Shown here in pieces: positions 1 through 44,423 of a DNA stretch of 64,000 nucleotides (positions are counted from its first letter, which is position 1; every line of letters starts with the position of its first letter). This stretch comes from Halichondria panicea (taxonomy: Eukaryota > Porifera > Demospongiae > Suberitida > Halichondriidae). The DNA lies in assembly GCF_963675165.1 (NCBI RefSeq), contig NC_087382.1:5681963-5745962 (forward strand). Direction: 5' to 3'. The translations under genes were made by a program, and so were the position numbers. The notes under the pieces were generated by a model. The model saw nothing but the letters and a program-made list of their open reading frames with translations. It did not search any database and was not told the origin of the DNA.

Positions 1-2902
1 ACAGTCCATATTAGCTACGTAGACAACAATATTGCTATTACATACTAGGTACACGTAGTAGGTACATCACTCATGCATCCCATAATCTAACAGGCCTAGA
101 CAAAACCAGGAAGTGAGATTACAAAACCAGGAAGTAGCAGCTTAACCAAAAATGGTTGAAAGAAACCGATTTGCACCTATACGCCCACACAATAGAATAG
201 TCTTTGTTAGTGTAGATTGCATAATCACCATGGCAGCAAATGTAGGTGCTGCCATTTCTATGGACTCTGTTGTGTACATAAACACTGGTGTTGACACATA
301 TGCACATGCAGGGGATGGCCACTGATGCACGATTCCTGTGTGGCCACAGGGCAGAGCCTCAACACGAGTAAAAGAATGTAAATATTATCAATAACCATAA
401 CCTTTACTGTACACAATATGTGTCTACGTTCTCATGCATAATTCAATTAAAATTAAGTAATGCAAGATTTGCTTTCAATTTTGCAAGTAAACAGTCCGTC
501 AGGGATAGCACTCTCGTGTAAGTAGCAAACATAACGATGGACATCGACACCTTCTAGAGACACTCAATAAAAGATAGAATTAGGCCTATCCAAGGCCTTG
601 GTTCTTCGTAGATTCTGACCGGACACATGGTGCCTATATTGTGCACATACAAGCATCTTAGCAACACTCACCGCTTCTATCCAGACAGGTGACTGTGGCT
701 TTGAAACCCGGGAACCGTCTGTTGCTACTGGTACGAAAGATGACTTGAAAAACACCTACATGTACGTGGCACAATAACCATTATAACTGTATACATGTAG
801 TGTGTATATGAATACAGCACGAACTGTTTCTCTATAGGAAAATGAACGGGGGAGGGGTACAGGACAGAGAGTGCAATGTGTGTAAGCAGTTACATGCCTT
901 AATCTATATTACTGAAAATCAGGCATTCAACACTCTTCCACTCTAGAAATAGGGACAGAAGTGACTACATCAGCAGGTATTGTACTCACTGCAGTAGGAT
1001 CGATAAAATAATAATAATTATGCTCACTACTGTAGATACAATTATTAGCGAGAGACGTTGAGTCTCCTAACCTGGAATGAGGAGCTCAGAATTCATCCCG
1101 GGGTCACTGCCACAACTCTCTGAACGTCCGAAGCTTCCACTGGGTACCACTTGTACATAATCCACACATCTGCATAACAATAACAATAACAACGATAAGT
1201 GCAATACTATACAAACTATGTATGCACAATTAATGTTGCATGGCTATAATAGTGTTATATCATCTTTACATATGCAAGATCGGATACTTACTGATAGTAG
1301 GTTCACAATGTCCTGTATATAGGTTGTATAATTAACTAGGAACCTGGATTACCGGTTACATTGTATTATAGCCTCATCATGAAAAAAACAGTCATTTGTG
1401 TTAATGCATTATCTCATTGCCAGAGTTTAGGACATGCACCATACTACATTACAAAAATGTGGAGGTGGGAGTCCATAAATTTATGGTTAGCTTTGAGTTT
1501 TTTTACATGGAAACTCGAAACCCAATATGGCGCTACAGCTGCACTAATGGAAAACCATGCAGGAGAGAGATAATTGTAACAATTAATCTAAGGAGATTCG
1601 ACACAGACCCAAGTGAAGTGTCAGATAACTATAAAAAAATCATGTTTTTTTGTTGTTGATATTTTAATTGACTTTGCACTCTCAAAAAGGTATAGGAGTT
1701 ATTGTACATGTACGACAGAGGCATATACGTTTGAGTTAAAGACGTGTATAACTTAAGTCATGTGAATATTCTCACATAAGCTCATCTTCGACATGGTAAT
1801 TGACAATTAACTTACCTTTCCTGTGTTCCGACAGGGCAATTTGGTTCCTCCATAATGATCTCGGTGATGTTGAAGAATGCATCGTGATTAGGGGGGCAGT
1901 TGACATTGTACATGACAATCATCTGATTGCCATAGCTGCAAATCAGAGCAGGGAGATAAAATTAGATCCCCTGAGATGTCATTTCAATTATATGTAAATG
2001 CATGTCCAGATATCAGACACCACATTTGTTTGCAATTAATTAGCGAACTTGTTTTCTGGCCAAATCAATAATTCACTCGACACACTTCTAGTTATGTTAG
2101 AGCAGAATGCAAACAACACAGCATGCATGATCGAGCTATACTGAGTGCAAACTTAATTCGATAAATTCTACATATTCCACAAATTACCTTTCAGGTTCAT
2201 CATCAATCTCGAAACCAGGTGAGAAGAGAAACTTTTGTCGAGGGTCACCACCGAGGACTTGGATGTCCTTCACCTGATGGTTTCTGCGGCGAATGGAACA
2301 TGTCGGACCGGCCAATATCCTTGTGCTGTATATTCCATATTCACTGCAAGTGTTATAGAGAGTAATAAGTATAGCATAGTTCGAAGTGCAGTGTATATAG
2401 GCACATGTATATACAGGCACGTATATTCTGGACTTGGAAACACAGCAATTATTACAGAGCAACAACCACATAGGCAAAGAATCTAGTCAACTGATTTTAT
2501 AGAGTTACAAAATAACTCTTACTTTTCCTCGGGCATGTCTGTGGTCGCAGTGTGTCTGAAGCTGCATGGATTCACGTCAATTCTGTTCAGCGCACAAGAT
2601 TGCAATTGACCCTCCACTCTCTGGAGACTATAGTTGGGAGAACAATAAATATGTTGCAGCTAGTACCAGCATGATTGTGTATAGTTACTGAACCACTTAC
2701 ATAAAGCCTTACTTGGAGTTGGATTGAAAACTCACAAATGCAGTATATAATAGAAGCAAGACACAAATACATTTATAACACTTGCACATTTAATGTACAG
2801 TATACCTTTACAAAACTCAACGCTTAACCTATAATTATAAACTCACCAACATAGAGCAGCAACCAGCAAGCATAGCCATAGGCCTCCTACAAATACTCTC
2901 AT
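1..2902 (-). CDS. Gene B1, secreted CUB-domain proprotein, 5' half (continues off the left edge)
   Basis: The reading starts at 2902 with a signal peptide (MRVFVGGLWLCLLVAALC) and runs leftwards through GT-AG exons at roughly 2850-2902, 2520-2632, 2186-2345, 1815-1939, 1070-1172 and 664-755. Together they encode a Cys-bearing N-terminal segment, then one CUB domain. CUB landmarks are FLFSPGF, YGNQMIVMYNVNCPPN, the CVDYVQV strand, ESCGSDPG and the closing FPGFKATVTCLD. All six exons are open and in phase. The rest of the gene lies before position 1; B2 shows what it should contain. B1 and B2 differ at scattered residues, for example PVGTQER against PVEDERR at one exon end, so they are separate loci rather than an assembly echo. 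Function beyond a secreted, probably cleaved CUB protein is unknown. Confidence 0.72.
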
Positions 2903-2967
2903 TCTGCACTAAAAATTGGAGTATTAATGGAATCTAAAAATTGATAGTATTGAGCTTATAGACTGAG

Positions 2968-44100: not shown

Positions 44101-44423
44101 TTTGTGCGTACATACACAATAGGCAATTTTCGAGCATGTTTGGCACAAATCACATCCATTACTGAGCCCTCACTTAAAGCAACCCTCAGGAATGTGCAAT
44201 TGGTTGGCAAATTTGTGTGTTTATTTGTGATGAGGATTGAAAATATTCACTGATTTTTACGCATTATTAACACACGTATACTGATGCATGTAATATATTC
44301 TCAGAAAAGCGTCAACTGAGTGCTATTGAGCCAGAGGTCATCGAGGCAGCAAGAAGAGGAGTAAATTCTTGCAATGCTGTGTTGAGAGGCGTTGCACAGT
44401 CCGTACTAGAGCTCATTAACTGA
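38161..44423 (+). CDS. Gene E, divergent secreted CUB-domain proprotein
   Basis: Ten exons: 38161-38321, 39055-39198, 40577-40667, 40879-41006, 41545-41680, 41847-41927, 42756-42885, 43054-43341, 43935-43994, 44305-44423. All junctions are GT-AG and in phase, giving 445 residues ending in TGA. It starts with a signal peptide (MNLGLKLALTLVFILSVNI). Exons 2-5 make a CUB domain: FYIQTPGRLRG, NNRWNVECRNDQ, CADYLELIRDFG, ENSCGF, then FRFPGFRMRIACF in exon 5. LRKKRYVHE is the candidate processing site. Exon 7 (FQNIDVVHTYNVYHG) matches FSDVLFVHTFDGDG of gene A, and exon 8 begins like the GTLIVVGCNAFY exon of B. Shorter than A and B, ending before their Cys-module array. This is the cleanest gene model in the window. 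Confidence 0.78.
38854..38968 (+). repeat. (GT)57 microsatellite in gene E intron 1
   Basis: About 115 bp of uninterrupted GT on the sense strand. The Cys-Val ORFs here are artefacts of it. Confidence 0.95.
39310..39338. repeat. Interstitial telomere-like CCCTAA tract
   Basis: Four near-tandem CCCTAA units, one with CCTCAA, inside gene E intron 2. It matches the TTAGGG telomere repeat of most animals. Confidence 0.7.
39840..40373. mobile_element. 534-bp DNA element with perfect 35-bp inverted ends in gene E intron 2
   Basis: Both ends read CATAGATAGAGTAGAGAGGG and onward, identical over 35 bp. A 7-bp GTCAGAT is present on each side (39833-39839 and 40374-40380), the likely target duplication. 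No transposase. The size of the duplication suggests hAT-like or Mutator-like mobilisation rather than Tc1/mariner. Confidence 0.85.
42693..42737 (+). repeat. (CA)22 microsatellite before gene E exon 7
   Basis: CA repeat ending about 18 bp before the exon 7 acceptor (CTTTCTCTGTCACAG). CA-rich RNA next to splice sites is a known hnRNP L target in animals, so it may affect exon 7 use. Confidence 0.9.
43345..43690. mobile_element. Fold-back element with tRNA-like segments in gene E intron 8
   Basis: Two arms (about 43422-43540 and 43550-43665) pair imperfectly through GCTTTAG..AAAAACGTCT and GGACGTGCACGTCC. TGGTGCAACGG at 43371 fits the pol III A-box consensus and GGTCCAGGTC at 43412 weakly fits a B box, so the outer segment may be SINE-derived. 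Confidence 0.55.

Follow-up and report, generated by a model that had tools for sequence, protein, structure and literature searches.

What kind of protein is encoded by a row of neighbouring CUB genes in a sponge, and what might such proteins do outside the cell? This question is raised by a 64,000-nucleotide stretch of the Halichondria panicea genome (G000:C6:5681963-5745962, hereafter the window; the genome comprises 131 Mb in 39 contigs). We lean, with somewhat more belief than doubt, to the reading that the clustered CUB family consists of secreted, convertase-cut, multi-domain extracellular proproteins for recognition or adhesion, expanded in this lineage by tandem duplication, a reading taken from sequence. 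An initial annotation had listed six loci (B1, A1, B2, A2, D and E) with common exon order, most intron phases and domain order. Four of them, A1, A2, B1 and B2, are upheld by GT-AG models with matching phases, whereas D and E are kept as CUB relatives only.

Gene models were built by manual reading of splice sites combined with a custom spliced aligner (Table 1). In A1, A2, B1 and B2 every junction is GT-AG and internal stops are absent. A1 and B2 have 16 introns in common with identical phases (2,2,2,2,1,0,2,1,0,1,2,1,1,0,1,0), the phases of A2 are those of A1 and the phases of B1 those of B2, and the B genes carry one additional intron of phase 1 in the linker. B1 had been placed entirely within positions 1..44423, which is correct for its first six exons, whereas the RRKR site and every exon behind the CUB fall in the left flank outside the window; read to the stop in that flank, the whole gene consists of 18 exons encoding 645 aa. 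The dN/dS ratio is 0.35 for B1/B2 (dS 0.075, proteins 95% identical) and 0.58 for exons 1-7 of A1/A2 (dS 0.031), the latter from 18 differences only. Because of the open GT-AG models, the matching phases and these two ratios, we take all four as real genes.

Table 1. Coordinates of the CUB family loci and their parts; positions refer to the window unless a contig is given.
Feature	Position	Strand	Description
A1	3419..10211	-	17 exons, 678 aa, stop TAA; all GT-AG, open
A1 basic site	8578..8595	-	RRRRRR
A1 stalk exon	6172..6435	-	(STPPLT)n, 5.8 minisatellite copies, followed by the initial half of C-terminal module 1
A2	19060..26979	-	17 exons, 732 aa, stop TGA; all GT-AG, open
A2 basic site	24970..24984	-	RRRRR
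A2 stalk exon	22383..22805	-	14.8 minisatellite copies; open throughout
B1, first six exons	672..2902	-	Signal peptide to CUB end; all GT-AG, without internal stop
B1, single exons	2902-2847, 2627-2523, 2343-2188, 1935-1816, 1169-1072, 755-672	-	
B2	12011..18528	-	18 exons, 642 aa, stop TGA; all GT-AG, open
B2 basic site	15610..15621	-	RRKR
D	30696..37013	-	Divergent; gene ends approximate
D CUB exons	35467-35304, 34654-34516, from 33668	-	
D basic motif	33364-33356	-	HKR
D possible beta part	33259-33213 and 32771-32624	-	
E	38161..44420	+	Divergent; first exon and post-CUB exons tentative
E CUB exons	39128-39198, 40565-40667, 40879-41006, 41545-41752	+	
E basic motif	41657-41668	+	RKKR
E post-CUB exon	44271-44420	+	By eye only
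Degraded A-like copy	27733..29816	-	Motifs split between frames, in-frame stop, exon parts missing
Z	C6		Directly left of B1
F1, G1, F2, G2	C6:5.97-6.01 Mb		
M	C6:6.527 Mb		
H1, H2	C4		
I1, I2	C10		
J	C12		
K1, K2	C17		

The products of these four genes run from a signal peptide (called by eye) through an N-terminal segment with two Cys and a NEYgiYsTRI-like motif, the CUB domain, the basic site and a middle region of about 240 aa (15397-13621 in the exons of B2) to two Cys-containing modules, after which the frame stops. The middle region is composed of a beta-looking half, ending in ...FxGPG..., followed by a helical-looking half, both distinguished by eye, and the C-terminal modules carry Cys pairs and a GxHTLxVxF-like pattern. 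The protein is more than a CUB followed by one domain, as it had first been described, and A1 and A2 further insert a (STPPLT)n stalk, which an 18-nt minisatellite encodes in frame, between the middle region and the modules. This minisatellite spans positions 6318-6422 in A1 and 22526-22792 in A2, leaving stalks of unequal length in recent duplicates (copy numbers in Table 1). Pfam scans returned no family for the C-terminal modules and none for the full-length B2 protein; an Ig identity of the modules was a visual impression only, with no Ig profile match in these scans, and the best PDB match of full-length B2, to a glutamate receptor (E 0.41), was judged to be chance.

The CUB call for the family rests on profiles. 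When a profile of eight members was compared with the PDB, the top matches were C1s (whole-chain E 2.5e-5) and MASP-1 (8e-5), with MASP-3 at 0.0023; these chain values sum two CUBs, and single stretches reach i-Evalues of 0.072-0.081 in the two alignments shown, none significant alone. PF00431 was matched by four of the eight members at E<=10 (best 3.8e-5), while A1, full-length B2, I2 and K1 did not match the Pfam CUB individually and pieces of E, cut in three ways, gave no match, 0.032 and 0.0028, all below the curated cut-off. A PF00431 search of the whole genome listed 85 matches with none in the window, as expected if a divergent domain is split by introns, and profile-profile alignment (hhalign) of the family with six Pfam-type CUBs from the same genome found no similarity (E 0.36). 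A bridging frame at C6:6234 kb is matched by the family CUB query at E 0.015 and itself matches PF00431 at 3.2e-6. The Asp of C-x-D is kept in 8/8 members, and the later Asp (RTSD) is found in A1, A2, I2, K1 and K2, with Glu in its place in H1, H2 and I1 and neither of the two in B, F, G, J, Z, M and E; both are putative calcium-site residues of the CUB. The likeness to the CUBs of C1s and MASP-1/-3, the best solved-structure profile matches, lies in the core motifs C-x-D-Y, SCG and GF. However, the family has a single CUB and adds extra conserved Cys and the 2-Cys N-terminal segment, and scanning B2 with Pfam revealed no protease domain. Apart from the clustered family, most of the Pfam CUB matches listed for the genome (72 of 85) fall inside 0.3 Mb at C3:4.71-5.02 Mb.

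The region behind the CUB had been described as belonging to no assignable family, and our searches agree: none of seven members (three of them partial, D and E excluded) matches Pfam at E<=10, and the best PDB hit of the middle region profile has a non-significant E of 0.86. The same result bears on a quite improbable alternative in which the family is a secreted signalling ligand held latent by its CUB, in the manner of PDGF-C and PDGF-D, and the cut behind the CUB frees the active core. The order of signal peptide, CUB, cut site (here a motif only) and C-terminal core is indeed common to both, and PDGF-C, which becomes active once its CUB is removed (PMC8181125), is a precedent for such activation. 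The family core, however, contains no PDGF/VEGF domain recognisable by Pfam or PDB and is followed by two modules, and the relative I2 has Calx-beta and NIDO; since no growth-factor core was found, membership in the PDGF-C/D group fails, and growth-factor identity of the middle region was set aside.

A CUB-proprotein-like family whose basic site keeps its place behind the CUB is supported across the relatives, with R-X-[K/R]-R present in the post-CUB linker of 15 of the 18 loci judged; M was excluded because its linker lies outside the model, and D was judged separately because its aligned segment stops before the motif. Upstream of the CUB end the motif occurs in none of the 19 segments scanned. 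The strict convertase motif is missing in F2 (IHKR), J (ERRR) and D (HKR), and such absences, together with the six and five consecutive Arg of A1 and A2, would suit a charged patch, perhaps one for sulphated glycans, instead of a cut site. We regard this as improbable, as R-X-[K/R]-R recurs behind the CUB in those 15 loci within linkers that are otherwise variable. The N-terminal fragment contains 8 Cys in 12 of 19 loci (B1, B2, Z, F1, F2, G2, I2, J, K1, K2, M and E), 9 in five (A1, A2, H1, H2 and D), 7 in I1 and 6 in G1, where the N-terminus is missing; with an even count, all disulfides could form inside the fragment, which might then come away once cut. The models of Z (C6:5674.6-5677.3 kb) and G2 (C6:6009.7 kb) also hold a second convertase-type motif, RQKR, after the beta part.

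D and E were scored part by part, using spliced scoring against 40 shuffles each. Their CUB parts reach 144 versus 113±8 and 191 versus 116±8, respectively, values attained by 0/40 shuffles, and their whole-length scores are 266 versus 164±13 and 386 versus 178±11 (20 shuffles each), with opposite strands at 159 and 182. Behind the CUB, the beta part of D scores 68 versus 55±5 (0/40, shuffle maximum 67) and the helical part of E 73 versus 56±8 (2/40), whereas the helical part of D (51 versus 50±6, 15/40) and the beta part of E (64 versus 59±5, 9/40) lie within the shuffle range. Judged by these scores, D and E are CUB relatives, the post-CUB domain of the family is possible in the beta part of D, and post-CUB similarity to the A and B genes is weak or absent in both. 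The idea of six equal loci was rejected on the two parts within the shuffle range, and the single post-CUB domain once assigned to all six loci is clear in four, being weak or not above shuffles in D and E. The same two parts would fit D and E being unrelated CUB genes pulled in by the alignment, which is a question separate from function. We consider this doubtful while giving it real weight: both CUB scores exceed all 40 shuffles, and both loci adjoin the cluster and carry a basic motif behind the CUB.

The family also extends beyond the cluster. To date, 19 loci have been modelled, at least across the CUB, six of them in the window cluster (A1, A2, B1, B2, D and E) and 13 outside (Table 1), and two further family exon matches on C17 at 2283870 and 2316026 stand outside these 19. 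Some relatives may have decayed, since the K2 and I1 models contain in-frame stops and the beta part is missing from those of F1 and F2. In I2 the middle region is followed by exons with matches to Calx-beta (8e-14) and NIDO (2.4e-38), and because of this continuation we place the family in extracellular company. I1 matches Calx-beta at 1.4e-5, below the cut-off, and for H1 and K2 exons of this kind were recognised only by eye. Downstream of K2 there is a Sushi exon (3.8e-4), followed after roughly another 8 kb by an LDLa exon (3.7e-6), both putative members of that gene. Elsewhere, at C2:272-278 kb, there is a row of similarly scoring Calx-beta exons spaced by about 406 bp.

Two groups of sponge proteins invite comparison. 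Sponge aggregation factors are secreted and gene-clustered, and the relative I2 has Calx-beta in common with them, whereas the window genes show no Calx-beta in Pfam (0 matches for full-length B2 and 0 for the C-terminal part of A1). The Wreath domain belongs to these aggregation factors; a literature search on it found no paper. The second group is mosaic proteins that carry Calx-beta, NIDO and Sushi, domains named in a figure legend of a sponge study (PMC8242945); they resemble the family in the Calx-beta and NIDO of I2, the Sushi exon behind K2 and similar H1 exons seen by eye, but the A and B genes of the window end instead in two Cys-containing modules. The architecture itself is named nowhere in the titles and abstract openings searched, with many subscription papers beyond that search.

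How the cluster arose can be read from its repeats. Comparison of the window with itself aligns 1-11159 with 15790-28150 in pieces of 84-94% identity, which indicates tandem duplication of a two-gene unit made up of an A gene and a B gene. The A-like copy at about 27.7-29.8 kb is probably a pseudogene, and, like the C-terminal modules, the STPPLT stalk and the 13 outside relatives, it was absent from the initial annotation. A repeat of its 3′ part is found at about 10.6-11.2 kb (27524-28150 aligns with 10555-11159), as could be expected after unequal exchange between array members. A FastTree analysis of the N-terminal part joins A1/A2 with J, Z, G1 and G2 (0.836), B1/B2 with F1 and F2 (0.913), and H, I and K with one another (0.973), leaving D and E on long branches. 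By this tree F is B-like and G and Z are A-like, and A-like and B-like genes take turns in two C6 arrays, Z-B1-A1-B2-A2 and F1-G1-F2-G2, which are separated by about 0.26 Mb.

A tandem array with recent duplicates, a degraded copy and stalks of different length in A1 and A2, together with a CUB whose best solved matches are complement proteases, could also be expected of immune recognition or opsonin-like proteins binding microbes or non-self. This would be a narrower, non-exclusive case of the recognition or adhesion reading, and we think it unlikely: dN/dS stays below 1 for A1/A2 and B1/B2, as averaged over the compared stretches, and no lectin or effector domain appeared in the Pfam scans made.

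Other features of the window lie to the right of the cluster. An open transposase frame of 556 aa at 50631-52301 (+) matches PF13843 (DDE_Tnp_1_7, E 8.8e-69) and is presumably piggyBac-type, and a tandem array of a 159-bp unit (48859-50660, 11.4 copies, 96% matches) extends to its start. At about 45139-45582 (-), SISDSTLTNNSA-type repeats resemble parallel beta-helix/Chlam_PMP repeats, with weak Pfam matches below the cut-offs, and somewhat similar text was seen by eye at C6:5956 kb. Scans of the window with Rfam (gathering threshold) and for tRNA gave 0 matches each.

Returning to extracellular recognition or adhesion as the favoured reading, the following course may be proposed. The signal peptide would direct the proteins to the secretory pathway, where a proprotein convertase may cleave right after the CUB, at the site of R-X-[K/R]-R type. 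The 2-Cys segment and CUB, mostly with 8 Cys, would then form the N-terminal fragment, and the middle region and C-terminal modules the C-terminal one. Removal or rearrangement of the CUB fragment might then activate or unmask the rest, which would work in recognition or adhesion at the cell surface or in the matrix. The A and B genes of the window derive from tandem duplication of a unit with one of each. A bolder extension, distinctly unlikely in our estimate, is that the paired and co-duplicated A and B genes make partner proteins for convertase-activated recognition, where loss of the CUB prodomain would let a novel type of extracellular domain engage its partner and the variable-repeat stalk would tune the reach.

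The clustered, variable-stalk and apparently cleavable design offers concrete candidate recognition genes in a sponge, and the exon-resolved models open expression, cleavage and variation between individuals to direct testing. If the middle region proves to be a new fold, it would add an extracellular building block to the biology of early animals.
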